The position numbers and the translations under genes are program-made. Source: Panopea generosa (taxonomy: Eukaryota; Mollusca; Bivalvia; Adapedonta; Hiatellidae). From it: DNA of 64,000 bases. Location of the stretch: assembly GCA_029582155.1 (NCBI GenBank), contig CM055906.1:11651101-11715100 (forward strand), written 5' to 3'. This document shows, piece after piece, positions 7,871 through 63,889 of the stretch (within the stretch, counting starts at the first letter, position 1; each line of letters begins with the position of its first letter). The notes under the pieces were generated by a model that saw nothing but the letters and a program-made list of their open reading frames with translations, did not search any database and was not told the origin of the DNA.

Positions 7871-8044
7871 CTATGATGACTTAATTATTTCTGTATGGCC
7901 ACCAAACGAATACTTGTAAGTCCTTTTTCCCCACTTGATTGTTCGTGGAGCTATTAGTGCTTCCAAAAATATCACCACCGCAAGAGTTTCACGTAAAATC
8001 CAAGCCAATAAGTATTCACACTTGGAAAATGGAAGAGGTCCATG
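7871..8044 (-). CDS. UGCG: UGCG coding exon 9 (residues 349-405, stop)
   Basis: After acceptor TGTTTCAG the exon reads HGPLPFSKCEYLLAWILRE, a hydrophobic stretch, then RTIKWGKRTYKYSFGGHTE and ends KSS with TAG at 7873-7871. The human C-terminus has the same layout (FSKLDYAVAWFIRE, TISWRTGRYRLRCGG). A plus-strand reading frame over the same bases is a shadow. Confidence 0.93.
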   Translation of the reverse strand, partial: HGPLPFSKCEYLLAWILRETLAVVIFLEALIAPRTIKWGKRTYKYSFGGHTEIIKSS

Positions 8045-11000
8045 CTGAAACAGAAAAAGCAGAAATAGGAATCAAGAAGAAATGGCAACCCTTTTATAGC
8101 TTTCGACTACGTCCCAATCTGAAAACTACATTTCCCTGCCACAATTGTGGTCAGAAAAATTCCCAAATTGATATTGTTTTCTTCAATATTCCTTTTTTCC
8201 CCCCCCAAATCAATTGGACATAATGACATGTTAAATTCAATTAAATAAGGCTTAAACATCTAGCTGTGGTAAATCCAATAGTTTGGTTCAGTTTGATACA
8301 AACATCAAACTACTTCAAAAATCCCGAATACATCACAATATTGACCTCTTTTTTCCCCCATAATTAAAGGGTTTGGTCTCGTCATAGAAATAGAGGACTG
8401 CTAAGTTTTGTGTGGATTTAATGTAAAACTTATTTAACCCAATATAGACTAAGTTCTTGATTATATGAATCAGTTTGATAACATGGTCAACAGGATGAGG
8501 CATTCTGAATATATAAAACTCAGAGAGTAAAGTTGTCTTATTTTCTACCATTGTAATGTTATGATGATCATAAAATGAGGCTTCTCTGTTTTCTATATAA
8601 TCTTTCCTGAATCTGAGCATCTGGATAATGTGCGCATCAAAATACATGACTGTATTCAATTGTGTACTTCCAAACATTGGTGGAGGTACATAAAGAAAGC
8701 AACCGAGTCATTACCGAATTACAAATATGTAAACAAAAGCTTAAAGTTCAGTCCGCTCATTTAAGAAATACACATTTCAATCAAAGTTATTTATTTTCTC
8801 ACTTTTTTAAAAAAACAGTCACTAAGGGTTCTACAGGAATGGTTTTGGCAATACTATTAACAAATTTAACTGCAATCATTTTGTTTTATCAAAAATTGTG
8901 CATTTCGGAAGTTTAATGAGACTTTGAAAGTGTTTCATTCTTACCTGGACCATGCGTAACAACAGATAATCTGAAATGAGCCAGACTGCCAAATGGATGC
9001 CAAAAAATATATATGGATTGATTCCCAAGAAATGATAAAGGGACCAGGCACCATACACGCCAAGCGGCAGACACTCAGTCAGCGGTTCCAGGAAGCCACT
9101 CACAACTGGCATCATGTTGAATCTCAGCCGCAGCCATCTGAAACCGAAATTACAGTTATAGAATATTAAATTATTGAAAATAAGTTTTATTGAAAATAGT
9201 GAACATTGTACCTTGGTATTTTATGAATTGTCCTTGAACACAGAAATTGAGAATGCAGTCTGTTCCCTTTCTGTCTATACTCTTTGACAAATATTGCACC
9301 TGGTCTGTATTATACTGATGGGCAGACAGACAGTGTTAACACTTTATGCCCCATCACCATTTTCCGTTTGACATAAAAAAGCCGAATTAACATATCATAA
9401 AAGCATTGTTCTTATTTCTGTAATACAAAAATCAACCTACACACACAGACTGCATGTCCTTAAGGCAGATGAGATTGCAAGAAGTATAAAAATGTAGTTA
9501 CATGCATTGTGCATAACAACATGCAATCAACAGGTGTAGCACACAGATATGAATTTCTGCCCATGACAATTAACTAATATCAAGTTTGAAACTGACAATA
9601 TCATTATAATGATATTAACGTCTGTTATGACAGAAGTTAATTATCTGTCTATATTAATTAATTCTGCCTTCCGTAGATATTAATTTGTTCCTAGATGCGT
9701 ACAATTTCAGAAGTTTTTATCAATTATCGATTTAAACAAATTTTACATTAAATTTGAAAGAAGTTCTTACAACATGGACAAATCATGCTCAGAATTTCCC
9801 TAGGTAGAACCAGTTCTAAACCTCATTATGTGGATAAAGTGTCATACTTAAGTTAAAAATATACGGCTGTGGTGGGGATCAAACCCTCAACCCTCGGATC
9901 ATTGGTCCTATGCTTTACCACTGGACCAAGTGCTCAACTTGTAGTTTAATATTATTTCTCCTGAAGATCAAATTCCACAGAAAATAGGAGAAAATGTTCT
10001 AAAGGTAACAAAATAAACTGTTCAGATGATCCATGGAATGTTTCAGGACCCATTCTGTGTGGGAATGAAGGAAACAGTTAACAAACAACAACTATTCAGG
10101 CTCGATAAAATAGAAGTGAGACATTATATGTGAAGAATAGGAAAATCTGCCCTTACCTGACCATTCTATCTTTGTAACCAATGACGGATGTCTGGGCCAG
10201 GCTCTGCTGTGCTGGGTATGATGACAACACCAGTCTGTGGCCTCTATAATATAATGCATCAACTGGTGTTAGAAAAGAGCATGAAAAATGTGAAACCTGC
10301 TTTAGTTGTTGTCTATAATACATGTTTTTTTAATTTAATTAATGATACAACTGTCTGTGACACAGGATTTAGTGCTTGTTGATGTTGCATAAAATATTAC
10401 ACATGGCCTTCTATGACACATGCCTATCATTGACGGTCTTATAAAAGATTGTATTATGATACCATGGTCATAACATATGCCTATCAGTAACCAGCCAGGT
10501 TCATAGCATATGACTTTCAGTAACCACCAGCCAGGTTCATAGCATATGACTATCAGTAACAGGCAGCCAAGTTCATAGCATATGACTATCAGTAACCAGC
10601 AGCCAGGTTCATAGCATATGACTTGGTAACCAGTCAGGTTCATAACATAAGACTATCAGTAACCGGCCTGGTTTGTAACATATGACTATCAGTAACCAGC
10701 CAGGTTCATAGCATATGACTATCAGTAACCAGCCAGGGTCATAACATATGACTATCAGTAACCAGCCAGGTTCATAGCATATGACTATTGGTAACCAGCC
10801 AGGTTTGTAGCACATGACTATCAATAACCAGCCATGTTCATAGCATATGACTATCAGTAACCAGCAGCCATGTTCATAGCATATGACTATCAGTAACCAG
10901 CCAGGTTCATAGCATATGACTATCAGTAACCAGCAGCCAGGTGCATAGCAAATGGTTATCAGTAACCAGGCAGGTTCATAGAATATGACTATAAGTAACC

Positions 11001-14000
11001 AGTCCAGTTCATAACATATGACTATCAGTAATCAGTCAAGTTCATAACATATGACTTTAAGTAACCAGTCAGGTTCATAACATATGACTATCAGTAACCA
11101 GCCAGGTTCATAGCATATAACTATCAGTAACCAGCCAGGTTAATACAATATGACTATCAGTAACCAGCTAGGTTCATAGCATATGGCAATCAGTAAGCAG
11201 CCAGGTTCATAGCATATGACTACCAGTTACCAGCCAGGTTAATACAATATGACTATCAGTAACCAGCCAAGATCATAGCATATGGCAATCAGTAAGCAGC
11301 CAGGTTCATAACATATGACTATCAGTAACCAGTCAGGTTCATAGCATAGGACTATCAGTAACCAGCCAGGTTCATAACATATGACTATCAGTAACCAGCC
11401 AGGTTCATAGCATAGGACTATCAGTAACCAGCAGCCAGGTTCATAGCATATGACTACTTGTTATCAGTCAGGTTAATAAAATATGACTATCAGTAACCGG
11501 CTAGGTTCATAGCATATGGCAATCAGTAACCAGCAGCAAGGTTCATATCATATTACTATCATAACCAGCCAGGTTCATAACATATGACTATCAGTAACCA
11601 ACCAAGTTCATAGCATATGACTATTAATAACCTTATAACATATGACTATTAGTAACCTTATAAAGTATGACTATTAGTAAACAGCATTTGTGCTCATTCA
11701 TTATTGAATTTATTAAACTTGGGAAAAATGACAGAGCCTTACATAATATTTTTTATAATATACCGTAAAATCAATTTAATAAAAAATAAACACTCATGTA
11801 AAATCCTCAATATAAACATGTCACTTTACTGATAGTGGATGTGTAAAATGTCATGTAACACTATCTCTCATTGCTGCTGAAGCAATGAAGCAAGTATTCA
11901 GTGAAGGTTACTAGTCAAGGTTATCTGGTTACGCTAAGTGTAAATACTTTTCAGTAAACAAGTAGTATGTTGTTGCACAATTATCTAACAGTCCCCATCT
12001 GTGACGTTGTGATGTATTGTAACCACAGTTTTTAACACATAACAGGTTATATCACATATATATGATTATAATATTATATGGCAACCAATTTAACTTTGGG
12101 GATAGAAGTTTGTATGATTAGGTTTTACATCTTTTTGAAACGGTATTTCAGTTATTTTTATTCCTTTTTTTTTTTTTTTTGAATAGCGTTTAACACCATT
12201 TTCAACACATTTCAGGTTATATAAGGCATATTCAGTGTTATTAGTGGAGAAAGACCACAGAATGAATTTGAGTAGAACCAACGTCCCTCCGCAAGTAACT
12301 GGTAAACTTTCTCACATAAAGTTTTTGGAGCAAGCGGGACTTGAACCAACGACCTTAGTGCTGAGAGGTGACCTTAAGATGGTACCTTCGACCATTCGGC
12401 CACGGAGGACCCCTGTATTTCAGTTATACAATGGTAGTTATCACACCTAACCATTCCTGGAATCCGTCTAGCGGTTATCCAGAAATTGACACACCTTGTC
12501 CCTGCAAGACACTGACTACTTCTCCACATATCCAGAAGTGGGAGGATCATGGCCATAGAGCACAGTTTAATCATTGAAGAGATTTGTGGCCAGGTTGGGA
12601 TTTGAACATTACCTCTGGACTGACAGGTTCTTTACAGACTGAGTTAATTGGGCTGGGCTGCGGAGAAGAAAACCAGATACATAAACATCTGATCAGAACC
12701 ACCTTCTTTCTCAAAGTAAGTGACTCAATTTATCAATTAAAGTTTTTTGACCAGGCGTGGTTTGAACTCACAACCTCAACGCAAGAGGTAAGTGATCTTG
12801 AGACGGTCCCCGACTTGACCACAGACCCAATTTGTATATACAGAATAATATCAGAAACAGTCTGTCAGGAGAGCACTGTGATTTTTAAGTTATGTAGCGT
12901 GTCACCAACTTTGTAAAATAGCATATATTCTTCTATATCATAACTACGTCTGTAGATAATACATACTTTTCATGCAGTGCATGTGTGAGGTAGAAATCCT
13001 CTGCCAGATATTTCCCGTACCAATTCAGGCCATGCAGTTCATCAAGTGAGGCCTTTTTAAACATGTAAGACATCCCAGTGGTACAGCAGAGGCCCAAGAT
13101 GTTGAAGGCCAAATAGTATCTCGCAAATGCTCCTCCAAAGTAGGTCTGAAATGTGTGAAAATTATTTATTTCTGTCAATTTGTTTGAATATTTAGTATGA
13201 TTTATTCTGTAAATATGAACAAATGCTTCGTAGATTGTGTAAAAATCAGTTTGTCAATGGGGGTTGGTCTGTTTGTTTGAATATTTTGTGTCATTTTATG
13301 CCATCAATGACTAACCCAACCACTCTTATCTGGGATCCTGGAAGTTTACCAGCACTCAAGTACACCCATCTCCGCAAGTAACTGATAACTCTCCCACTTG
13401 AATCAGCGGTGACAGTTGAAGGACAATGAGATGCATATGAGATGTATATCTACCATAATAGAGACTGTGAACAGGCAGGGATAAGAATTCCGACCACTCG
13501 ACTGAAAGTCAGATGTGCTACTGACAGAGCTAACCAGTCGTAGCTATTAGTCTGTGAGCAATTGTTAATTTACTTGCCTTAAATACAATTATGGTTTAGG
13601 GGGCATGTTTCAGCCAACAAGAATTTTTCAGCTGTTATAAGTAGTTTTAGCGATACATTATATTAATGCTGTAAAAAACATAGGTAAGTTGGATGGTATG
13701 ACCTCAATTCTAGTTTGAGTGTTCCAGCCATCCAGATTCCAGTCATTGAATGTAGAATAATGGAATTTAATAGGAATTCCATCTATCTGGTTTTCCTGTC
13801 ACAAAAATGAAGTTCTGATGCGCTTACCTTTTCTAGAGTTTGAGCAAATCCTTTCTGATCCGTGGTGAAGGGCATCTGGTGACATAATGCAACATTGGGC
13901 TTCTGCAGTTTACACACCATATCTAGTATTATATCTGAACTGGCTGCAAGGAGAAAAAACAGTCAGAACTTTACTCTCAATGTCATACATCCAGAAATGA

Positions 14001-17000
14001 TTTTTAGAGGGAATGCAATGTATTGACCAAATTATACATGAAGCTTTAAAATAATAATTTGAGGTTCGTCATTTTCGGCATATTACTGGTTATATATGGT
14101 TAACAATTTTTTTTTTATGGAAAAAGATCTCGGACTCATAAACATGAAATTGAGAAGAATCACTGGCAAACTTTCTCATACATTTTTCATACTGAGCTGG
14201 GTTCGAACCCATAACCTTAGCCGTTTAAGAAAAGGAATTTGGAGAGTGTCTCAGACCACTGAACTATGGAGGACCCGAGCAAAAAAGTTACTTCTAGTAT
14301 ACTGGTACAAGCGATATCCATTCATTTATCTAATGTCATAAAACCATCTAACTTTAGATTAACCGAAGCGTTATTTTACATGTTCACATCCTCGCCTGGA
14401 TCGGTGCACAACCATATCAAGCATAACATTTACCAGCAAAAATTGGTTTTGCAGATTTTATGTAACTTTATTCACCATTTATAAACATATGACATTGAAA
14501 CAGCAAAAATAGGTATGTGTAGTGTCATTCTGTTGTTATAAGTATGTGTAGTGTCATTCTGTTGTTATAAGTATGTGTAATGCAATTCTGTTGTTTTAAG
14601 TATGTGTAGTGTCATTCTGTTGTTATAGGTATGTGTAGTGCAATTCTGTTGTTATAAGTATGTGTAGTGCAATTTTGTTGTTATAACTATGTGTAGTGTC
14701 ATTCTGTTGTTATAAGTATGTGTAGTGTCATTCTGTTGTTATAAGTATGTGTAGTGCAATTCTGTTGTTATAAGTATGTGTAGTGTCATTCTGTTGTTAT
14801 AAGTATGTGTAGTGTCATTCTGTTGTTATAAGTATGTGTAGTGCAATTCTGTTGTTATAGGTATGTGTAGTGTCATTCTGTTGTTATAAGTATGTGTAGT
14901 GTCATTCTGTTGTTATAAGTATGTGTAGTGTCATTCTGTTGTTATATGTATGTGTAGTGCAATTCTGTTGTTATAAGTATGTGTAGTGTCATTCTGTTGT
15001 TTTAAGTATGTGTAGTGTCATTCTGTTGTTTTAAGTATGTGTAGTGCAATTCTGTTGTTATAAGTATGTGTAGTGTCATTCTGTTGTTATAAGTATGTGT
15101 AGTGTCATTCTGTTGTTATAAGTATATGTAGTGCAATTCTGTTGTTATAAGTATGTGTAGTGTCATTCTGTTGTTATAAGTATGTGTAGTGCAATTCTGT
15201 TGTTATAAGTATGTGTAGTGTCATTCTGTTGTTTTAAGTATTTGTAGTGTCATTCTGTTGTTTTAAGTATGTGTAGTGCAATTCTGTTGTTATAAGTATG
15301 TGTAGTGTCATTCTGTTGTTATAAGTATGTGTAGTGCAATTCTGTTGTTATAAGTATGTGTAGTGCAATTCTGTTGTTATAAGTATGTGTAGTGTCATTC
15401 TGTTGTTATAGGTATGTGTAGTGTCATTCTGTTGTTATAGGTATGTGTAGTGTCATTCTGTTGTTATAGGTATGTGTAGTGTCATTCTGTTGTTATAAGT
15501 ATGTGTAGTGTCATTCTGTTGTTTTAAGTATGTGTAGTGTCATTCTGTTGTTTTAAGTATGTGTAGTGCAATTCTGTTGTTATAAGTATGTGTAGTGCAA
15601 TTATGTTCTTATAAGTATGTGTAGTGTCATTCTGTTGTTTTAAGTATGTGTAGTGTCATTATGTTGTTATAAGTATGTGTAGTGCAATTCTGTTGTTATA
15701 AGTATGTGTAGTGTCATTCTGTTGTTATAGGTATGTGTAGTGTCATTCTGTTGTTATAGGTATGTGTAGTGCAATTCTGTTGTTATAAGTATGTGTAGTG
15801 TCATTCTGTTGTTTTAAGTATTTGTAGTGTCATTCTGTTGTTTTAAGTATGTGTAGTGCAATTCTGTTGTTATAAGTATGTGTAGTGTCATTCTGTTGTT
15901 ATAAGTATGTGTAGTGCAATTCTGTTGTTATAAGTATGTGTAGTGCAATTCTGTTGTTATAAGTATGTGTAGTGTCATTCTGTTGTTATAAGTACGTGTA
16001 GTGCAATTCTGTTGTTATAAGTACGTGTAGTGTCATTCTGTTGTTTTAAGTATGTGTAGTGTCATTCTGTTGTTATAAGTATGTGTAGTGTCATTCTGTT
16101 GTTATAAGTATGTGTAGTGCAATTCTGTTGTTAAAGGTATGTATAGTGCAATTCTGTTGTTATAAGTATGTGTAGTGTCATTCTGTTGTTATAAGTATGT
16201 GTAGTGCAATTCTGTTGTTAAAGGTATGTGTAGTGCAATTCTGTTGTTATAAGTATGTGTAGTGTTATTCTGTTGTTTTAACTGGCCTCTGTTTCACCAA
16301 CACTTTCTCAAGTCTAACTTTAACACTTAATTTGACTGGTTATGTAAACATCTTTAATCAGTATGAATGAATCCAACTGCAGTTTTTATGGAGCCAGTCT
16401 AAAATCATGATCACCGGGATGCTTTTCATAGATTTAATTTAATCATTAGTATTTAAGCATTTACTTAAAGATGAGCCAGATTGCACAGGCCATCAATGAA
16501 GAAAGTGTTGATTTCTGTTTTCCAACAGAGTTCTAAAGTATGTGGGAGGAGGGGGGGGGGACAACCTCATCAATTCAATTATTCATAAAATATGAAACTA
16601 CTTAGACATTTACAACATTCTGCTGGTATTAATTAACAGCTGCCCTATTATGAGGGCCAGTGTAGTATACACACACGACAACATAAACATAAAATACTCC
16701 AGACTTTGTTAGTTTTATATAGAGCGTGACAATCCCAGAATGTTATAAATTTTTAAGTGTTTCTATAAACAGTTATCTCTTATCTACTACTGTGTTTATT
16801 TAACTATTTAAGTTATAAGATCTGTGTTTATATTGGGTGCAGCTTGATGAACTTGACAACAATATCAGCTATCTCCTTGATGGGGCAGTTATCTTGTTAA
16901 TAAATAGCTACACATGTGATGCATCTTTTATCATATTTCCTGTACAACATCAGGCCAAACAAGTTACTGCTTAAATTTAATCTGCATTTGAAAGGTAGTT

Positions 17001-20000
17001 AAAATACAGTTAAAAGATCTAGTTTTATCATTTTGAAGTTTAGCCTTCAACATCACATCATTTTCTTTCACATTGTGGTGTTTCCATCTCTAACCCTCAA
17101 TTTACATTCAGGTTTTATCTGAAGACTTATTTTCCTACACTGGTGTTCCTTTCTTATCCTTAGTTCATATTCAAATGTGCCCTTTATTATTTGAAGTTTG
17201 GAACTCTTTGTTTAAGGTTTAACTCCAGATTATTTCATCTGTAGTTTTCACTCAGTTACAATAAAACTAAAATATAGTATGTTGAGTGTGAGGGGCGGGA
17301 TCTAATAGTAAATTGACCTGATGCGAGCTGTCAATTAAACAAGCCGTTTATCCAATCAGCGATCGATATTGGTTGCCACACCACCATTTTCCTTAGGCAA
17401 ACTGACAATGTCTTAAGTTAATACTACATTGTATTTATTTTAGACAAACAATGCCACATAGCCAGTGGGCAGAGCGATAGTTGTTCTTGAGTCAGGTCAA
17501 TAATTTGTTGAACCCTGAGATCAGAGAGTCATGGGTCCGAACCCAACACTGCTATGTGTCAGTCCTCGAGCATTTTATTTACATTACACTTAGCAATGGT
17601 TCTACTCAGGAAGACCAAGTTTTCAGAATTTGTTTCGCAATCTATCTAAAATAAATAAAGTTTCCTTACCCTTTATTCTACTGGTACTTATCCAGACATA
17701 TTCATATTGAGCATTGTCATATGCTGGAGCCATGTTGTGGACCATAGGGTTGATTATTCCTTCTTTACCCCCTGAAAACAAAAATCAATTAGATTTGATT
17801 ACATTATTCAATAAAAATGAAACATTGTTATTATATTACAGTGATTATACAGTATTCTGCTATTTACACTCTTGATAAATTAATATTTGGATTCCCTCCA
17901 TAAATTATGTTCAAAGCTGTTAAAACTCCTACATAATATCTAGATATTAAACCAGCCAATGTCTTTTATTATTTTCACTTTACATACCATAACTATTTAT
18001 AACAGTGTCATAAAAACATTAAATTTTGGCATTTTTTTTAAATTTAAAAATAGCTTCTGATATTCTTTTGAGTTTGTGTTTTTTGTATATAAATAAATCT
18101 TACAACAGGAAAAGATCCCATATTTTGTCATAAAAACAAAAGCTTTGCATATCAACTAAAGAAAAAACAGAGTGGTAGTGTAGCGAAAAGGACACTGTCT
18201 GCTTACATCAGAGGTTGTGTGTTTGATCTCAGGTTAGACCCGTTGCCTCTAAAAAACAACACCCAGACGGATTGAAATAGTACAAAAAAACTAGTGTAAC
18301 TCACCCATGAAGAGTTTACAGTCCACTTTTGGATAGCGCTCCTTCATTTTGTTGACGAGATTAATGGCTGGGTCTTCATCATCCTGGACACAACACAGCA
18401 GCTCAAACTACAAGTACAAGCACCGTTACAACAACAATAACATAGTTGTGATGAATGGTTAAATTATATTTGAATGGGGTTTAACACCATTTTCGACACA
18501 TTTCAGGTTATATATGGCATATCCAGTTTTACTAGTGGAGGAAGATCAAGTAGAACCACCACACTTTCAGACAAAGTTTTTTTGCAGCGTGAGCTTCAGA
18601 TGGTGCCATAGACCACAAATGGTTAAATAAGGAAGTCTAACGCTACTGCACTTACATAGTTTGTAGACAGTAATATAAGTATGACAAAGTAACATCTAAA
18701 CAATAATAACAATGGCACTGACACTGTCACCAGAGCTGACATGTCACCAGAACTGGCAATAACAACAACATTGAAAATGTCACCAGAACTGGCAATAACA
18801 ACAGCACTGACAATGACACCAGAACTGGCAATAACAACAGTACTGACAATGTCACCAGAACTGACAATGACACCAGAACTAGCTACAACAGCACTGGCAA
18901 TGTTACCAGAACTGGCAATAGCAACAGCACTGACAATGACACCAGAACTGGCAACAACAGCATTGACAATGACACCAGAACTGGCAACAACAGAACTGAC
19001 AATGTCACCAGAACTGACAATAACAACAGCACTGACAATGACACCAGAACTGGCAATATCAACAGCACTGACAATGGCACCAGAACTGAAAATAACAACA
19101 GCACTGACAATGATTCTAGAACTGGCAACAACAGCACTGACAATGATACCAGAACTGACAATAACAACAGCACTGACAATGCCACCAGAACTGACAATAA
19201 CAACAGCACTGACAATGACACCAGAACTGGCAACAACAGCACTGACAATGACACCAGAGCTGGCAACAACAGTACTGACAATGTCACCAGAACTGACAAT
19301 GACACCAGAAATGGCAACATCAACAGCACTGACAATGACACCAGAACTGGCAATAACAACAGCACTGACAATGACACCAGAACTGGCAATAACAACCGCA
19401 CTTGCAATGATACCAGAACTGACAATAACATCAGCACTGCCACAGATAACCATTAAAGAGTTATCCAGGCATGTTGCAAACCATGATGAACAGACTGTGA
19501 AGGATAATGGACATAAGCAGTATTTTTACTCACCTTGGGGTAGTTGATGAGGAAATGACTTTCAAGGTTTATTTCCAACAATGGATCTATACCCATCAAT
19601 GGTTTAATGATGGATACACCAGGTAAGTTATCTGTCAACACTATTGGGTCCTCTTTGTTATGTAACACAAAACGCCTAAAATATACAAAAGAAATGCCAA
19701 TGAACCAATCTTTCTAAATAAAATGTTATTATAAAAACTAATGAATCAAATATTTCTTATGTTCAAAATCAGGTATCCATGCATGGTAAATAACAGCAAA
19801 TGTCTTTGATACAACTTCTCAACTGTACATGTTATTATCTGTAGCCATTGGAAAGCTACTTAATTTGGATGTCTGGCAATGACTCAAAGAAAAGATTTAG
19901 TGTCATTTTTAAGCCCTTGATAAACCTAACTACTCTTTACAGGGATCCTGGTTAACCAAATACTTCAACACACACTCAGATAGTTGCTAAAATCTTCCCC

Positions 20001-21408
20001 ACTTGAATCAGTAGTGAGAAACAGATGACAAAGAGAGGCAATGCTGTATATCAATCACCGCTGAGACTACTGGGTGAGTATTCAAACTCACAACACCTGG
20101 ATTGATAGTCAAACACAATACCGACTGAACTACCGGGTCCAAATATTAATACACCTAAATAATGCAGTCTGACATGATGATAAAAACTTACACAAAGTGA
20201 CTCACACCACAAACACACATCAGTTGTTGTGTTTTCAGAGAAGTCAATTGCTTATACTTTAGCCGGATACAGTAATGTTAATGACGGTGCTATATATAGA
20301 CTTCTCAGAACTTAATTACACAATTTTCAAGATAGTCAATTGTTGCTTTGATTGTTTTTCTCCTTTAAACATCTACATAATTTAATATGTAACCAAATAT
20401 TGATATCAATGTAAAAGCTACTTTTCTCACTCTGCCTAAATTCCATCAATTAGCTGACTTCTTTCCCAGGGAAACTGTTAAAAAGTAGGACAAAAATTAC
20501 TACACTATGAGTATGCCTTAATGTAAGTATTCTAGCATTTGTTATGTAAAACCACATCATTGTAATTTTTTTCTTATTTTTTTATCTCAATTTAAGACTT
20601 CTATAACAACAACTTTTGTATAATATAGCCAACACAATTACAATATTTCAATATATTATAATGCAGGTGTCAGTCAGTAAGCAATTAATGTTTACTGCAT
20701 TGTAAAATATATTTACACAAAATATAATAAAGCCATTGATCCATTGTGATCACATATTCAAGATAATGCAGCAATACAATACAATGACACCTGTACTAAA
20801 TTCTTACCTTTAGTTAATTTCAACAAAACCACGCACAATGTAAATGCTAATCAGTCTGTAATTGACATTCTGATCTGTCTACATTGTTTACCACTCAGTT
20901 TATTTGTTTCAATATATAGCATCACATTATACCATCAATGGCTAACAGATGATCAGATGGACTGTTAACCAGTACTCACGACCACACCCATCTTGGAAAA
21001 TAAATAATCACTTTCCCATTTGAATCAATGGTGAGAGATATGACAATGAGACACAATGCCATATATATATCATCATGGAGAGGGAGGTGGTAGTGTAATG
21101 GATAGCGTTGGCTGCTAACGCTAGAGGTTGCGGGTTTGATCCCCAGCTTGACCTGATGCCTCTTATAAAACAACACTCTGTTATGGTTCTACCCAGAAAG
21201 TGGACTTGAGGGCTGTGACATATAAGCTCTGAGCTTACATCACAATCAAGCTAAGTATAAACTAAGCATTTTTTGTGTTTACTTACCCACCAATCTGTGA
21301 TATGATGACAAAGAACGTTGAGAGGCCATACAGGACAAGGCCAATAATTGCCAGGAAAAATATCACATATGATAATGTCTGCTCGTCCAGTAAGTTGTAA
21401 ATACCCAT
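7871..21408 (-). CDS. UGCG: Ceramide glucosyltransferase (glucosylceramide synthase), complete nine-exon gene
   Basis: The enzyme transfers glucose from UDP-glucose to ceramide at the Golgi membrane, the first step of glycosphingolipid synthesis (family GT21). I joined nine minus-strand exons: 21408-21287, 19675-19534, 18407-18305, 17771-17670, 13943-13828, 13145-12967, 10243-10157, 9137-8945 and 8044-7871. Their lengths sum to 1218 nt, giving 405 residues plus TAG with no internal stop, and every junction is GT-AG. Visible features are an N-terminal membrane anchor (about 12-37), LPGVSIIKPL (58-67), QDDEDP (96-101, D1 = D100), AED (243-245, D3 = D245), RMVRW (281-285) and C-terminal hydrophobic segments (about 305-380). 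The D2 Asp (human D144) is Thr152 and human H193 is Phe202. Human residues are recalled from memory. Gene identity is very secure; catalytic competence is not. Confidence 0.96.
8945..9137 (-). CDS. UGCG: UGCG coding exon 8 (residues 284-348)
   Basis: Acceptor TTTCAG and donor GTAAGA flank 193 nt. It starts with the W of RMVRW, then WLRLRFNMMPVVSGFLEP and two hydrophobic segments (about 305-322 and 327-347) ending SDYLLLRMVQ. Human counterparts are WTKLRINMLP and FDYIQLRGVQ. The exon ends on a codon boundary. Confidence 0.96.
9786..9935 (-). mobile_element. SINE family C copy
   Basis: In reverse complement it reads GGTCCAGTGGTAAAGCAT, then GAGGGTTTGATCCCCACC (A-box-like and B-box-like), followed at the lower coordinate by ACTGGTTCTACC. 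It lies in UGCG intron 7. Confidence 0.7.
10157..10243 (-). CDS. UGCG: UGCG coding exon 7 (residues 255-284, RxxRW start)
   Basis: A short 87-nt exon between acceptor TTATAG and donor GTAAGG. It encodes GHRLVLSSYPAQQSLAQ and then YKDRMVR, with the W from exon 8 completing the (Q/R)xxRW motif of processive and lipid glycosyltransferases. Phases (one base in, two bases out) fit both neighbours exactly. Confidence 0.94.
10475..11685. repeat. 33-bp tandem array in UGCG intron 6
   Basis: The unit contains CCAGGTTCATAGCATATGAC followed by TATCAGTAACCAG. Some units carry an extra CAG, giving 36 bp. Roughly 36 copies are present, decaying at both ends. The CYEPGWLLIVI-type minus frames are by-products. 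Confidence 0.95.
12156..12414 (-). mobile_element. Complete SINE family A copy with 13-bp target duplication
   Basis: Perfect 13-bp copies of GTATTTCAGTTAT flank it at 12143-12155 and 12415-12427. Read on the minus strand it starts GGGGTCCTCCGTGGCCGAAT (A-box-like), has B box GGTTCAAGTCCC (rc of 12338-12349), and continues TTCTACTCAAATTCATTCTG and GAAATGTGTTGAAAATGG. It ends with GTTAAACGC and a run of 16 A. The head resembles a class II (Leu/Ser-like) tRNA. It lies in UGCG intron 6. Confidence 0.93.
12645..12832 (-). mobile_element. SINE family A copy, older
   Basis: It reads AACCACCTTCTTTCTCAAAG, GTGGTTTGAACTCACAACC, and AGTGATCTTGAGACGGTCCC, in family A order and reverse complement. It lies in UGCG intron 6, 3' to exon 6. 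Confidence 0.65.
12967..13145 (-). CDS. UGCG: UGCG coding exon 6 (residues 196-255, D3 motif)
   Basis: Acceptor TTTCAG and donor GTATGT flank 179 nt. It encodes YFGGAFARYYLAFN, then CCTTGMSYMFKK and YGKYLAEDFYLTHAL. The D3 aspartate (human D236, the proposed catalytic base) is Asp245 in AED. Human C207 aligns to Cys216. Human H193 aligns to Phe202, so that side chain is not conserved here. Confidence 0.96.
13270..13545 (-). mobile_element. SINE-like family E copy
   Basis: On the plus strand: TTTTGTGTCATTTTATGCC, CTAACCCAACCACTCTTATC, CCACTTGAATCAGCGGTGAG, then a tRNA-like end with AACCAGTCG. It shares its layout with copies at 19895, 20912, 42590 and 55735. It lies in UGCG intron 5. Confidence 0.75.
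13828..13943 (-). CDS. UGCG: UGCG coding exon 5 (residues 157-195)
   Basis: Acceptor CTTGCAG and donor GTAAGC flank 116 nt. The peptide SSDIILDMVCKLQKPNVAL and then PFTTDQKGFAQTLEK aligns to human PDTLTDMVNQM and PYVADRQGFAATLEQ. The exon ends on a codon boundary. Intron 4 upstream is the longest of the gene (3726 bp) and holds the 29-bp array. Confidence 0.95.
14082..14276 (-). mobile_element. SINE family A copy
   Basis: It contains ACTGGCAAACTTTCTCATAC, GGTTCGAACCCATAACC and CAGACCACTGAACTATGGAG, the tRNA-like head in reverse complement. It lies in UGCG intron 4. Confidence 0.75.
14511..16285. repeat. 29-bp tandem array in UGCG intron 4, about 61 copies
   Basis: The unit reads GTATGTGTAGTG, then TCATTCTG or CAATTCTG, then TTGTTATAA. 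The array is very homogeneous, with two main variants at the TCAT/CAAT position and rarer TTGTTTTAA and TTGTTATAG ends. Confidence 0.97.
16286..17455. other. Intron 4 sequence with no recognised feature
   Basis: Apart from a G-run near 16550 I see no repeat or coding signal in this part of the intron. Confidence 0.4.
17457..17640 (+). mobile_element. SINE family C-like copy
   Basis: It reads CATAGCCAGTGGGCAGAGCG, then AGAGAGTCATGGGTCCGAAC and TGGTTCTACTCAGGAAGACC. The second segment is B-box-like. It lies close to exon 4 in intron 4. Confidence 0.65.
17670..17771 (-). CDS. UGCG: UGCG coding exon 4 (residues 123-157, altered D2 site)
   Basis: Acceptor TTTTCAG and donor GTAAGG flank 102 nt encoding GGKEGIINPMVHNMAPAY and then YEYVWISTSRIKA. 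The family motif GGKKVGINPK is clear. The segment aligned to human WICDSGI reads WISTSRI, so the D2 aspartate (human D144) is Thr152 and the Gly two residues on is Arg154. The codons are unambiguous in the sequence and the frame is fixed on both sides. Confidence 0.94.
18168..18270 (+). mobile_element. SINE family B head fragment
   Basis: It contains GAGTGGTAGTGTAGCG, CAGAGGTTGTGTGTTTGATC and GTTGCCTCTAAAAAACAACA, matching the family B head. It lies in UGCG intron 3. Confidence 0.65.
18305..18407 (-). CDS. UGCG: UGCG coding exon 3 (residues 89-123, D1 motif)
   Basis: Acceptor TTGTAG and donor GTGAGT flank 103 nt encoding FELLCCVQDDEDPAIN and then YPKVDCKLFMG. The D1 aspartate (human D92) is Asp100 in QDDEDP. 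The exon leaves a codon split after one base, which exon 4 completes as Gly123. An earlier CAG at 18386-18384 could serve as acceptor but would drop the conserved FELLCCVQ. Confidence 0.95.
18478..18612 (-). mobile_element. SINE family A tail fragment
   Basis: It reads GGGTTTAACACCATTTTCG, TTATATATGGCATATCCAG and GTGGAGGAAGATCAAGTAG, the 3' part of family A in reverse complement. It lies in UGCG intron 2. Confidence 0.75.
18705..19450. repeat. 33/36-bp compound tandem array in UGCG intron 2
   Basis: Units alternate ACTGACAATGACACCAGAAC with TGGCAACAACAGC or TGGCAATAACAACAGC. Indels are multiples of three, so frames of 186-276 codons stay open on both strands. The peptides are pure repeats (LAITTALTMTPE and reverse), so I do not call genes. 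Confidence 0.95.
19534..19675 (-). CDS. UGCG: UGCG coding exon 2 (residues 41-88)
   Basis: Acceptor TTTTAG and donor GTGAGT flank 142 nt. It encodes the post-membrane linker and the signature LPGVSIIKPLMGIDP followed by NLESHFLINYPK, matching human LPGVSLLKPLKGVDP and NLETFFELDYPK. This begins the glycosyltransferase A-fold nucleotide-binding region. The exon ends on a codon boundary. Confidence 0.95.
19895..20140 (-). mobile_element. SINE-like family E copy
   Basis: It reads TTAGTGTCATTTTTAAGCCC, CCACTTGAATCAGTAGTGAG and GTATTCAAACTCACAACACC, in family E order. It lies in UGCG intron 1. Confidence 0.7.
20912..21075 (-). mobile_element. SINE-like family E fragment
   Basis: It contains CATCAATGGCTAACAGATG, CACACCCATCTTGG and CCCATTTGAATCAATGGTGA, and runs directly into the family B copy that follows. 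Confidence 0.65.
21080..21275 (+). mobile_element. SINE family B copy
   Basis: The tRNA-like head GGTGGTAGTGTAATGGATAG and B box GCGGGTTTGATCCCC lead into TTATAAAACAACACTCTG, GGTTCTACCCAGAAAGTGG and AGCTAAGTATAAACTAAGC. The copy ends next to UGCG exon 1, in intron 1. Confidence 0.85.
21287..21408 (-). CDS. UGCG: UGCG coding exon 1 (residues 1-41, start codon)
   Basis: The ATG at 21408-21406 lies in the context ACAATGG. The peptide starts MGIYNLLDEQ and continues into a hydrophobic stretch (about 12-37), the N-terminal membrane anchor of this family. The exon ends with GG before a GTAAGT donor at 21286-21281, leaving a codon split after two bases that exon 2 completes as Gly41. A polypyrimidine-CAG acceptor ends at 21412, so the exon probably runs to 21411 with three bases of 5'UTR. 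Confidence 0.93.
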
Positions 21409-21479: not shown

Positions 21480-23400
21480 ATCATCTGACCCAGCTACACT
21501 CATGTGCATGTCAGGTTGAACTAGCTATCTAACCCATGTTCATCCCAAGTTTGATTTCACTAGCTATCTAACCCATGTTTGTCCCAAGTCTGGTTGAACT
21601 AGCTATCCAACCCATGTTCATCCCAAGTTTGATTTCACTAGCTATCTAACCCATGTTTGTCCCAAGTCTGGTTGAACTAGCTATCTAACCCATGTTCGTC
21701 CCAAGTCTGGTTGAACTAGCTATCTAACCCATGTTCGTCCCAAGTCTGGTTGAACTAGCTATCTAACCCATGTTCGTCCCAAGTCTGGTTGAACTAGCTA
21801 TCTAACCCATGTTCGTCCCAAGTCTGGTTGAACTAGCTTTCTAACCCATGTTTGTCCCAAGTCTGGTTGAACTAGCTATCTAACCCATGTTTGTCCCAAG
21901 TCTGGTTGAACTAGCTATCTAACCCATGTTCGTCCCAAGTCTGGTTGAACTAGCTATCTAACCCATGTTCGTCCCAAGTCTGGTTGAACTAGCTATCTAA
22001 CCCATGTTCGTCCCAAGTCTGGTTGAACTAGCTATCTAACCATGTTCGTCCAAGTCTGGTTGAACTAGCTATCTAAACCATGTTCCTCCCAAGTCTGGTT
22101 GAACTAGCTATCTAACCCATGTTCGTCCCAAGTCTCGTTGAACTAGCTATCTAACCCATGTTCGTCCCAAGTCTGGTTGAACTTGCTATCTAACCCATGT
22201 TCCTCCCAAGTCTGGTTGAACTAGCTATCTAACCCATGTTCGTCCCAAGTCTGGTTGAACTAGCTATCTAACCCATGTTCGTCCCAAGTCTGGTTGAACT
22301 AGCTATCTAAACCATGTTCGTCCCAAGTCTGGTTGAACTAGCTATCTAACCCATGTTCGTCCCAAGTCTGGTTGAACTAGCTATCTAACCAATGTTCGTC
22401 CCAAGTCTGGTTGAACTAGCTATCTAACCCATGTTCGTCCCAAGTCTGGTTGAACTAGCTATCTAACCAATGTTCGTCCCAAGTCTGGTTGAACTAGCTA
22501 TCTAACCCATGTTCGTCCCAAGTCTGGTTGAACTAGCTATCTAACCCATGTTTGTCCCAAGTCTGGTTGAACTAGCTATCTAACCCATGTTCGTCCCAAG
22601 TCTGGATGAACTAGCTATCTTACCCATGTTCGTCCCAAGTCTGGTTGAACTAGCTATCTAACCCATGTTCGTCCCAAGTCTGGTTGAACTAGCTATCTAA
22701 CCCATGTTTGTCCCAAGTCTGGTTGAACTAGCTATCTAACCCATGTTTGTCCCAAGTCTGGTTGAACTAGCTATCTAACCCATGTTTGTCCCAAGTCTGG
22801 TTGAACTAGCTATCTAACCAATGTTCATCCCAAATTTGGTTACTCTAGTATCTAACTCATGTTCCTACCAAGTCTGGTTGAACTAGCTATCTAACCCATG
22901 TTTGTCCCAAGTCTGGTTGAACTAGCTATCTAACCCATGTTTGTCCCAAGTCTGGTTGAACTAGCTATCTAACCGATGTTTATCCCAAGTCTGGTTGAAC
23001 TAGCTATCTAACCCATGTTTGTCCAAAGTCTCGTTGAACTAGCTATCTAACCCATGTTCATCCCAAGTCTGGTTGAACTAGCTATCTAACCCATGTTCAT
23101 CCCAAGTATGGTTGAACTAGCTATCTAACCCATGTTCCTCCCAAGTCTGGTTGAACTAGCTATCTAACCCATGTTCATCCCAAGTCTGGTTGAACTAGCT
23201 ATCTAACCCATGTTCATCCCAAGTATGGTTGAACTAGCTATCTAACCCATGTTCGTCCCAAGTCTGGTTGAACTAGCTATCTAACCCATGTTCATCCCAA
23301 GTATGGTTGAACTAGCTATCTAACCCATGTTCCTCCCAAGTCTGGTTGAACTAGCTATCTAACCCATGTTCATCCCAAGTCTGATTTAACTAGCTATCTA
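21480..23400. repeat. 39-bp tandem array upstream of the first UGCG coding exon, about 49 copies
   Basis: The unit contains GTTGAACTAGCTATCTAACC followed by CATGTTCGTCCCAAGTCTG. Variation is mainly CGTCCC, TGTCCC, CATCCC or CCTCCC. It begins about 70 bp beyond the 5' edge of coding exon 1, so it lies in a 5'UTR intron or the promoter-proximal flank. Confidence 0.97.
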
Positions 23401-43786: not shown

Positions 43787-44044
43787 TCAGTATTTTTCTG
43801 TGGAATTCACAACAGAATATAAATTAAAAGCAGTCTTCCCTGGAGTTGACAATACATTTTTTAATAAAACTACAAGTCCGTCAAGTCCGGATCGTCTCAA
43901 CACCAGTTCTATGTGGTTTTTACTTACCCCACTTGCTGCGAGGGATTTCACGTTTCCTTTTGTTATAAACTTTTTGGGAATCCAATCCGAGTAGGTATCA
44001 AAATATTTCTTTTCATTTAAAATCCGTTGAATTTTACAGTTCAC
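43787..44044 (-). pseudogene. Putative C-terminal transposase fragment
   Basis: An 85-codon minus frame with IPKKFITKGNVKSLAASGVS followed by KNHIELVLRRSGLDGLVVLL. This resembles a helix-rich segment I associate with the same transposase family, but the match is from memory and weak. It lies inside the TTAA element, in the orientation of the N-terminal part at 46257-47053. Confidence 0.45.
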
Positions 44045-44097
44045 TGAAAAAGTATCATAATAGAGTAACGATACGCCAAGGTTTGATTGAATAATTG

Positions 44098-44366
44098 ATT
44101 GATGATTGAATATACACCGTCATTCTTATGCCATCGAGGGCTATCAGACAATCGGTTAACTTAACCACTGTTTTCTGGGGTCCTGAAAGGTTAACCAGTA
44201 CCCGAGTCCCGCTCGCTCAAAAAACTTCAAGTGGGAAACTTTTACTAGGTTTTTGCGGTCGGACGGTGGTTCTACTCAGTCTGAGGTCTTCTTACACCAG
44301 TAAAACTGGATATGCCATATATAACTTGAAATGTGTTAAAAAAAGCCTTAAACCCCATTAAAAAAA
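44098..44366. mobile_element. Family E fragment (minus) joined to a family A fragment (plus)
   Basis: 44098-44205 reads ACACCGTCATTCTTATGCCA and CCTGAAAGGTTAACCAGTAC (family E, minus). 44205-44366 reads GTGGTTCTACTCAGTCTGAG, AAAACTGGATATGCCATATA and TTAAACCCCATTAAAAAAAC (family A tail, plus). The 388-bp duplication starts at the family A tail. Confidence 0.75.
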
Positions 44367-56599: not shown

Positions 56600-57890
56600 A
56601 CGAACCTTCACACAAGCCACGGACCCTAACAAAAGCTACGGACCCTCACACAGGCCATGGACCCTCACACAGGCCATGGACCCTCACACAAGCCACAGAT
56701 CCTCACACAAGCCATGGACCCTCACACAGGCCATGGACCCTCACACAGGCCATGGACCCTCACACAGGCCATGGACCCTCACACAAGCCATGGACCCTCA
56801 CACAAGCCATGGACCCTCACACAGGCCATGGACCCTCACACAGGCCATGGACCCTCACACAGGCCATGGACCCTCACACAAGCCACGGACCCTCACACAA
56901 GCCACAGATCCTCACACAAGCCATGGACCCTCACACAGGCCATGGACCCTCACACAGGCCATGGACCCTCACACAGGCCATGGACCCTCACACAGGCCAT
57001 GGACCCTCACACAGGCCATGGACCCTCACACAAGCCACAGATCCTCACACAAACCATGGACCCTCACACAAGCCATGGACCCTCATACAGGCCATGGACC
57101 CTCACACAGGCCATGGACCCTCACACAGGCCATGGACCCTCACACAGGCCACGGACCCTCACACAAGCCACAGATCCTCACACAAGCCATGGACCCTCAC
57201 ACAGGCCATGGACCCTCACACAGGCCATGGACCCTCACACAGGCCATGGACCCTCACACAGGCCATGGACCCTCACACAGGCCATGGACCCTCACACAAG
57301 CCATGGACCCTCACACAAGCCATGGACCCTCACACAGGCCATGGACCCTCACACAGGCCATGGACCCTCACACAGGCCATGGACCCTCACACAAGCCACA
57401 GATCCTCACACAAACCATGGACCCTCACACAAGCCATGGACCCTCATACAGGCCATGGACCCTCACACAGGCCATGGACCCTCACACAGGCCATGGACCC
57501 TCACACAAGCCACAGATCCTCACACAAGCCACGGACCCTCACACAGGCCATGGACCCTCACACAGGCCATGGACCCTCACACAGGCCATGGACCCTCACA
57601 CAGGCCATGGACCCTCACACAGGCCATGGACCCTCACACAAGCCACAGATCCTCACACAAGCCATGGACCCTCACACAAGCCATGGACCCTCACACAGGC
57701 CATGGACCCTCACACAGGCCATGGACCCTCACACAGGCCATGGACCCTCACACAAGCCACAGATCCTCACACAAGCCATGGACCCTCACACAAGCCATGG
57801 ACCCTCACACAGGCCATGGACCCTCACACAAGCCATGGACCCTCACACAGGCCATGGACCCTCACAAAAGCTACGGACCCTCACACAAGT
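56600..57890. repeat. 19-bp satellite, about 68 copies
   Basis: The unit is CCATGGACCCTCACACAGG with variants ending CAAG, or with CACAGATCC in place of CATGGACC. Variants recur in blocks, showing a higher-order pattern. Because 19 leaves remainder one when divided by three, the frame shifts each unit and all three plus frames stay open for 389-480 codons. These are not genes. Confidence 0.97.
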
Positions 57891-58625
57891 CACAAACATT
57901 CATACAAACAACAGACCCTAATAGAAGCCATAGACCACGGTCTCTCACAGAAACCACATACCTTAACACAAACCATGGTCCCTCACTCAAGCCAGGTCCC
58001 CTCACACAAGCCAGGGACCCTCACACTAACCACAGACTCTCACACAAACCACAAACCCTAACACAATCCACAGACCCTCACACAAACCATGAACACTAAC
58101 ACAAACCAGGGATCCTCACACAAACCACGAACACTAACACAAACCTGGGACCTCACACAAACCATGAACACTAACATAAACCAGAGACCCTCACACAAAC
58201 CACGAACACTAACACAAACCAGGGACCATCACACAAACTACAAACACTAACACAAACCAGGGACCCTCACACAAACCACAAACACTAACACAAACCAGGG
58301 ACCCTCACACAAACCACTAACACTAACCAGGGACCTTCACACAAACCACGAACACTAACACAAGCCAGGGACCCTCACGCAAACCAGGGACCCTCACACA
58401 AACCATGAACACTAACACAAACCAGGGACCCTCACACAAACCACTAACACAAACAAGGGACCTTCACACAAACCACGAACACTAACACAAGCCAGGGACC
58501 CTCACACATACCACGAACCCTAACACAAGCCAGGGACCCTCAAACAAACCACGGACTCTCGCACAAACCAAACCCTAGCACAAGCCACGGACCCTCACAC
58601 AAACCAGGGACCCTCATACAAACCA
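57891..58625. repeat. 38-bp dimer derivative of the 19-bp satellite
   Basis: The unit is CACAAACCACGAACACTAA followed by CACAAACCAGGGACCCTCA, two diverged 19-mers. It continues the 19-bp array without a gap and decays toward 58620. Confidence 0.9.
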
Positions 58626-59280
58626 TCGCATGCCAGTATGAAGAATTACTTAATGAGAAAGTGTAATAAAATTTGTAACTTTTAAAATTACAAAGTTTCC
58701 TTTGTATCAGAAATGAAAGACTGTAAGATAGAATACAAATCTCGAGAAAGTATATGGTTTTATTTGGGCCACGCATGTACGATTCACATCTATAGTGTGC
58801 TACATACCAATTAAATCTTTGTTTTCAGACACCCTGCAACAAGGCTGATTACATCCAGTTTACATACATATTCACTGGAATAAGACATGGAAAAATTAAT
58901 TATTTTTTTCAGTGTATCCGATATTGAAATAGGCATGTGATTTGGAAGAACTGCCATTTGGCCAAACACCAACTTAAACACTGACAAAGTCCAAAATAAA
59001 TATATTCGAGGGTATGTAAAACTATTAATGTCCTTTATAAAAAAACAATGGAGCAATTTTCTTTATATTTCATTTGTTGAAAACCACACCTTACTTTGAT
59101 GACTATGCAATAAACAGCTGACCCCTGACATAAGGGTCATCTGTGGACAACTCATTTTAAATGTTATTACATGCATACACTTAAATTAGCAATTAAGGAG
59201 ACACTTGATTCAAACATTGTTGACATCCATTGTATTGAGATGTCTTATCTGATGATATAGGCAATATGTTATTGTATGGT
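58626..59280. other. Unannotated AT-rich DNA
   Basis: An 81-codon minus frame at 58811-59056 has ordinary composition but no recognised motif and no convincing splice context. Confidence 0.4.
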
Positions 59281-62832: not shown

Positions 62833-63889
62833 AGAGGAATTAAAATAGACAAATGAATATGCATGAGAGGTTTACCAAAGTCGCATTATCGGGCATGTGG
62901 TATGATAAACACCGCAGGGGTCAATTGTTTATACTCACAGTCTGATTAGTTACGGTCTTTAAACAACAGTTTGACCTGTGTCGTTTCGAATAGAGATATT
63001 TGCAGACCTGTGTATTGTGAAAACTAGCTTGTCCGACTTTTTAAGACAAGCCCGATGGGCAAGTAACTTTGAAAAAGGCACATGCCCGAATCCAGATTTG
63101 ACAAGCCCCGGGCATCGGGCTATCCTATTCTTGGAGCACTGCGTGTCATCATAATCTAAGACTGATTGTATATATGCATTATGATATAGTATTCATGTTT
63201 CTAATGGAAGACATTTCTTGATTTTAGACAGCAAGAAAACCTTATTAATTGATGATTTACATAGTTTATTATGATAGGTCATGATTATCTACATACAATC
63301 ATAACAATTTTTGGCACTTTACATGTTATTGACATACAAATTAGTAATATTTATTGAAGACCTTCTTTGTGATGAGCATACAACCATACTCTTAGTTTTC
63401 TTTTCATCTAATAACACTTTGTTTTGATTTGCCCACTGTTCTGTTTGTTTAGGACTAAGCTTACTATTTACTTGTATTTGTTCAAGATTACTACCAGAGT
63501 TAAACAATGTCACATCATCTGCGAATTTATCTGTGTTATTAATGACACAAAGTGGAAGATCATTTACAGACATAATAAATAACAATGGCCCAAGTATAGA
63601 TCCTTGAGGTACCAAATCCTAATTAGACTGGATTTTGAATATTTGGTACCAAATTGCACTTTCTGGTACGTTCCATTTAGATAAGAACTAAACCACGTAT
63701 AAAGTGTAACTCTGTCATGTTTACACTGTACTTTAACCATTAATTATCAGATGTTACAATAATATTTCATATCCAGAGTTTTTTTCATCCCTGTTTGTGG
63801 ATATATCAGCCTCTGTTTAATAAGCCTTATATTAAACAGATAGTAATACGGTAAAATGCCCTGTATATCCAAGTATTACTGAACTCTGT

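Follow-up and report, generated by a model that had tools for sequence, protein, structure and literature searches.

UDP-glucose:ceramide glucosyltransferase (UGCG), a GT21 enzyme and of GT-A fold by family, catalyses the step that commits ceramide to glycolipids built on glucosylceramide, and it serves as a drug target. Its published motif definition comprises three aspartates (D1, D2 and D3) and RxxRW; the lysine of the NPKxNN motif (K124) lies outside that definition and is conserved in the sample described below. This lysine probably corresponds to one that lies close to the UDP phosphates of processive GT2 synthases, an equivalence on which one literature search yielded nothing relevant. 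In GT-A enzymes, both metal and nucleotide sugar are coordinated with the help of the DxD motif (PMC7185993, available sections). UGCG has DSG at this place, so D144, the D2 residue, is the sole acid of the motif. The accessible part of PMC6219604 places the DDD motif among 16 residues fully conserved across seven aligned glucosylceramide synthases (GCS), those from human, the fly, the worm, Arabidopsis, tef and two yeasts.

GT-A proteins without the motif are described in other families. According to the portions of PMC7185993 at hand, COSMC (C1GALT1C1, family GT31) is a GT-A paralog without DxD and xED that acts as a scaffold and chaperone for T-synthase. The gene described here is likewise an intact and kept GT-A paralog without its DxD; unlike COSMC, it belongs to GT21 and retains the xED aspartate as AED (D245), and of the two only COSMC has been shown to act as a chaperone. 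Bacteroides ovatus GT6 (with NXN) and the GT14 enzyme C2GnT-L share with our gene a GT-A fold lacking DXD; they are of other families and, in the excerpted text of PMC3961637, proven active and metal-independent. The bacterial GT21 proteins (ceramide glucosyltransferase, HpnI and their kin) have the catalytic core, D3 and RW in common with it.

The window analysed here, a whole stretch of 64,000 nucleotides from Panopea generosa (CM055906.1, positions 11,651,101 to 11,715,100), carries a UGCG-like gene on its minus strand at 7871-21408, located on C13 of the 1.47-Gb assembly (Table 1). Its coding sequence of 1218 bp specifies 405 amino acids. The claim of the first-pass annotation that the gene is complete and in frame over nine exons holds: the exons join in frame from ATG to TAG and all introns are GT-AG. 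Large minisatellite arrays occupy the introns of the gene or lie just upstream of it (10468-11632, 14509-16281, 18708-19439 and 21510-23400), with units of 33 bp (35 copies), 29 bp (61 copies), 18/261 bp, and 39 bp (49 copies). Elsewhere in the window, at 56604-58626, a 19-bp unit is repeated in tandem about 107 times, with long stretches open in each of the three forward frames (446, 487 and 489 codons); this array is likely a minisatellite, not a gene. Two open stretches on the minus strand are probable remains of transposable elements: one at 43787-44119, whose PML_C match of 23.6 bits lies under the cut-off of 27.1, and one at 63319-63618, whose RVT_1 reverse transcriptase match of 28.8 bits lies under the cut-off of 29.6.

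Table 1 Exons of the UGCG-like gene, in positions of the window.
Feature	Position	Strand	Remarks
Exon 1	21287..21408	-	start ATG, N-terminal hydrophobic segment; joined reading frame, donor GT
Exon 2	19534..19675	-	LPGVSIIKPLMGID; aligns with 26qf
Exon 3	18305..18407	-	carries D1 = D100 (CVQDDEDP)
Exon 4	17670..17771	-	102 bp, AG acceptor, GT donor; T152, R154 and M132 in the columns of D144, G146 and K124
Exon 5	13828..13943	-	
Exon 6	12967..13145	-	carries D3 = D245 (AEDF) and H233 in the G224 column
Exon 7	10157..10243	-	RMVR of the RxxRW motif
Exon 8	8945..9137	-	W285 of RMVRW and part of the C-terminal hydrophobic region
Exon 9	7871..8044	-	stop codon TAG

The protein aligns over residues 17-401 with the PDB chain 26qf, 'Ceramide glucosyltransferase' (phmmer, E 1.6e-95), which we take to be the human enzyme. 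Identity to this human-type chain is 39.5% (154/390), and both hold the domain PF13506 (Glyco_transf_21), found in the window protein over positions 1-173/174 at 131.7 bits, against a cut-off of 21.7. The top NCBIfam match is HpnI, at 135.4 bits far under its 310-bit cut-off. In a tree of 15 sequences, 11 of them drawn from the 37 bacterial proteins introduced below, the window protein groups with the human enzyme, a paralog on C6 and a partial sequence from C8, with support of 1.000 (FastTree) and 100 (IQ-TREE). Judged by domain and tree, the protein is a UGCG of family GT21 by descent.

Within the animal group, the window protein falls outside the other three, C6, C8 and human (support 0.734 and 56). 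Long-branch attraction may play a part in this weakly supported inner order, as no other animal branch is as long as that of the window protein. The sequence is probably that of a divergent, old paralog of animal UGCG. An outside position would also suit a second UGCG clade, animal-wide or mollusc-wide and lost in vertebrates, with the STSR-type D2 as its standard. We entertain this tentatively: apart from the danger of long-branch attraction, it has against it that DDD is invariant in the fly, worm and human enzymes aligned in the accessible part of PMC6219604. Such a clade would concern the spread of the variant, not its mechanism, and is compatible with the other readings discussed below.

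Exon 4 encodes GGKEGIINPMVHNMAPAYDNAQYEYVWISTSRIK. Its D2 column holds T152 (codon ACC, plus-strand positions 17683-17685), as the first-pass annotation had observed, and the exon limits that it gave, 17670-17771, are exact. The column of G146 holds R154 (AGA, plus 17677-17679). Also as described there, and confirmed by alignment, the other published motifs are intact: D1 is D100 (human D92), D3 is D245 (human D236), and (Q/R)xxRW reads RMVRW at 281-285, with R281, R284 and W285. Three further changes had been missed. In the same exon as T152, the lysine of NPKINN (K124) is replaced by M132 (ATG, plus 17743-17745) and the asparagine following the isoleucine by H134; in exon 6, the first glycine of AGGL (G224) is replaced by H233. 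Histidine 193, a residue of note in the literature on the rat enzyme, corresponds to F202 in the window protein; the bacterial loci vary in this column (Q in 19, F in 8, H in 2 and A in 1, n=30), which makes F202 uninformative.

The changes in exon 4 could in principle stem from an assembly error, or from a wrongly chosen exon with the DSG version elsewhere. The run of 500 N in the C8 UGCG locus (see below) shows that the assembly record is incomplete. We nevertheless consider an artefact very improbable, as going from D to T takes at least two base changes and the K-to-M and G-to-R replacements share the same in-frame exon with good splice sites. An alternative exon 4 encoding DSG, which the first-pass annotation had named as a counter-indication, was sought, and introns 3 and 4 hold no convincing one. 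Exon-4 peptides from human, C6, a dead C18 copy and the window itself, run by tblastn with E up to 10 against 13944-18304, gave short chance matches, the best at E 0.2 and five residues long. A short-motif scan of 9138-19533 returned the known exon 4 and two unrelated plus-strand matches.

How unusual the replacements are was gauged in a family sample. In 200 genomes from a single bacterial phylum, an HMM search gave 31 matches at E <= 1e-20 in 23 genomes, of which 30 loci were aligned; at the same limit, which may favour well-conserved members, none of 14 control genomes matched. Seven plasmid-borne homologs, picked from 42 plasmid records with a match, were added. The D2 column holds Asp in 30/30 bacterial GT21-family loci and 7/7 plasmid homologs, and so it does in human and C6; the K124 column holds Lys in the same 30/30 and 7/7 and in the same two animal proteins. 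D1 is D in 27/30. Many of the 30 loci are closely related and therefore do not make 30 independent tests, and two (L178, L179) come from a genome reached via a pattern scan holding D2 or the lysine; minus these, the count is 28/28. A further contig scan, which kept 80 of 526 relatives, was left out of the residue count, since one of its patterns held D2 and the other the lysine. Scans of prokaryotic and viral contigs with patterns from the animal alignment gave 116 and 111 pattern matches and no confirmed relative; bacterial relatives do exist, so these scans are insensitive.

Where all 37 bacterial proteins have D2 and K124, the window thus has Thr and Met. Among 21 human columns kept in at least 90% of the 37, the window protein has lost four (K124M, D144T, V168C, G224H) and C6 one (L220V). 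Seven human columns are conserved in 100% of them, and of these the window protein has lost three (K124, D144 and G224), the first two encoded by exon 4 and the third belonging to the AGGL loop in exon 6; C6 has lost none.

Whole-assembly searches found three kinds of UGCG-like locus besides dispersed fragments: the window gene, the C6 gene and the C8 locus. The C6 paralog (C6:13264682-13284115) is intact-looking and encodes 390 residues in eight exons as assembled. Its protein keeps D1, D2 (NISDSSI), D3, RLVRW and the lysine, with NGK for NPK and DSS for DSG as variants; its top NCBIfam match is also HpnI (164.2 bits, cut-off 310). Human and C6 are 44.5% identical, C6 and window 41.0%. The exon 7/8 and 8/9 junctions of the window gene are missing from C6, which has one different junction instead. 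The start of exon 4 of C6 is repeated about eight times in the intron directly upstream, mostly at 63-base spacing (C6:13270294-13270889, or L039:895-1490), and the copies seen include the splice acceptor.

The C8 locus looks like the conventional UGCG ortholog: the exons read from it (2, 5, 6 and 7) share 53.8% identity with human across 171 residues, while exons 8 and 9 give weak matches (E 0.19 and 0.56). The 500 N, either a gap in the assembly or a withheld stretch, lie between exons 2 and 5 of this locus (L047), where exons 3-4 are expected, and leave its D1 and D2 unreadable. A probe of the genome with exon 3, which carries D1, returned matches in C6 and the window only. The first-pass annotation had raised the prospect of a DSG-type paralog beside the STSR gene. 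A paralog with Asp at D2 does exist, namely C6; lying on another contig and being 41% identical, it is no recent sister. The genome search found no recent DSG paralog beside the window gene: apart from the gene itself, the best match was C6, with 54% over one exon, and the others had 30-51%.

Much of the remaining UGCG material in the genome is fragmentary. Seven broken copies of exon 4 were found, and Asp stands at D2 in 7/7, in frame or past a frameshift; with C6 and these dead copies all keeping Asp, the window gene is exceptional in its genome as it is in the family sample. A Pfam search of the genome gave 22 matches, of which 18 lie outside the window, C6 and C8, all over the part of the domain encoded by exon 6; the three of these that were read (L005, L006, L007) are of C8 type. 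Exon-2 copies other than that of C8 have a stop at the same place in 4/4 read (L024, L028, L032, L036). In one stretch of another dispersed copy (L048), neither exon 3 nor exon 4 was seen. The pattern NPK[IV]NN occurs 117 times in the genome versus 169 for the reversed control, so its matches are mostly chance; 12 of 30 such loci were read, one of them (L074) being a dead exon-4 copy, and four more listed places are likewise.

The dispersed fragments occur at C13:10506728-10532475, at C5:22592333-22620553 and on C2, C7, C9, C10, C12, C14, C17, C21, C23, C24 and C25 (loci including L003-L008, L024, L025, L028 and L032-L036). In several, an exon-2 match is paired with an exon-6 match about 20-28 kb away. 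It seems that a large repeat has carried copies of UGCG exons along as dead cargo, or else that segmental duplication has multiplied them.

With so many fragments elsewhere, those read being broken, and several invariant residues lost, the window gene might itself be freshly released from selection and at the beginning of decay. We rate this as improbable, and the view of the first-pass annotation that decay is unlikely is borne out by simulation. Neutral evolution of the window coding sequence was simulated in 1000 runs, with half of the substitutions as transitions, one indel per ten substitutions (80% of them frameshifting) and splice sites not modelled. On average, 270 substitutions passed until 3/7 invariant codons had changed, at which point the sequence had accumulated means of 8.1 stops and 21.4 frameshifts; 9/1000 runs were without a stop, and 0/1000 were free of stops and frameshifts alike. 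The window gene has no stop, frameshift or splice-site defect across its 1218 bp. The simulated positions were picked after seeing the data, which flatters this result, yet the gap is wide.

Against decay also stands the C-terminal part, as exons 8-9 keep 65-70% of the columns in which human and C6 agree. The idea that exon 4 had decayed as a whole finds no support: it retains 8/18 of such columns versus 100/155 for the other exons (Fisher p = 0.12). Neutral decay of the whole gene is unlikely; it does not fit. Instead, selection seems to have held the protein while the donor-site residues went.

We propose that the gene encodes a pseudo-glycosyltransferase, a divergent paralog of UGCG that has been kept although its UDP-glucose site is disabled; we put this at about an even chance and prefer it to the other readings. 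DxD-type donor residues are lost in an intact reading frame: a full-length protein would have been kept while the donor half of the active site was lost, with D2, the NPKxNN lysine and the AGGL glycine all replaced. With both D2 and K124 gone, ordinary UDP-glucose binding is unlikely. UDP-glucose would then not be productively bound, and little or no glucosylceramide would be made. By analogy with COSMC and T-synthase, the protein could instead bind ceramide or pair as a subunit with the animal's own active UGCG enzymes, so as to stabilise or modulate them, to name one option.

Several observations count against a pseudo-enzyme. The catalytic motifs of GCS are present in part, D1, D3 and (Q/R)xxRW being there and the D2 aspartate and K124 lysine missing, and the kept motifs are real evidence against a long-dead site. 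Unlike in COSMC, xED is not lost. The erosion of exon 4 does not significantly exceed that of the remaining exons. The plant GCS are described in the available sections of PMC6219604 as lacking RXXRW, so motifs 'essential' in human GCS can be missing elsewhere. Active GT-A enzymes without DXD are known from GT14 and bacterial GT6 (PMC3961637 and PMC7185993, in the parts at hand).

The latter precedents lead to the main rival reading, a protein that would still be an active glycosyltransferase, only metal-independent: with DSG turned into T-S-R, the charge of Arg154 would replace the cation, and D1, D3 and RxxRW, all retained, would catalyse. R154 occupies the G146 position, which corresponds to the metal-holding second Asp in a DXD motif, and in the same excerpts GT6 (DXD changed to NXN) and GT14 (DXD lost) work without metal, GT14 by means of basic side chains. 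However, K124, a basic residue in 37/37 bacterial proteins, is lost in the window protein, so that the surroundings of the donor site show no obvious gain in positive charge; the cationic residues of GT6 and GT14 lie near the C-terminus and not in the DXD slot (PMC3961637, in part); and no GT21 precedent was seen in the literature searched. We therefore consider this mechanism unlikely and favour the pseudo-glycosyltransferase over it. For the same reason, the 'different D2 solution' offered by the first-pass annotation is weakened: as K124 and G224 have also gone, to M and H, it has become less likely than a loss of donor binding.

The protein could also have taken on another sugar nucleotide or acceptor, leaving its donor-side residues free to change. 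The changes do fall on the donor side, with D3 and RxxRW kept, and C6 differs as well (NGK, DSS), so that several UGCG types, each with its own specialisation, may operate in this animal. The D2 aspartate and the K124 lysine are, however, also found in HpnI-like and more distant members of the sample, which means that an altered sugar or acceptor need not entail their loss; such neofunctionalisation appears rather improbable to us.

Altogether, the original observation of a missing D2 is confirmed and strengthened, and the pseudo-glycosyltransferase reading remains the one we prefer: the window gene is most likely a disabled or regulatory UGCG paralog. The copy is probably a dead or re-purposed enzyme and not a normal one. 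More boldly, it may represent an active GT21 glucosyltransferase without D2 and metal, Arg154 standing in for the cation, or else an animal clade of UGCG pseudo-enzymes that regulate glycosphingolipid synthesis via dimers with the active enzyme; this pair of outcomes we regard as possible, though doubtful. To our knowledge, either would be the first of its kind in GT21. Our searches of the open-licence PMC literature found no paper on a D2-lacking UGCG or on UGCG paralogs of bivalves.

An intact natural paralog without two donor-site residues that are kept by the family members examined would mean either that the family works without the metal aspartate, or that the animal keeps a non-catalytic UGCG regulator. 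It would also advise caution against counting each invertebrate UGCG-like gene as an enzyme.
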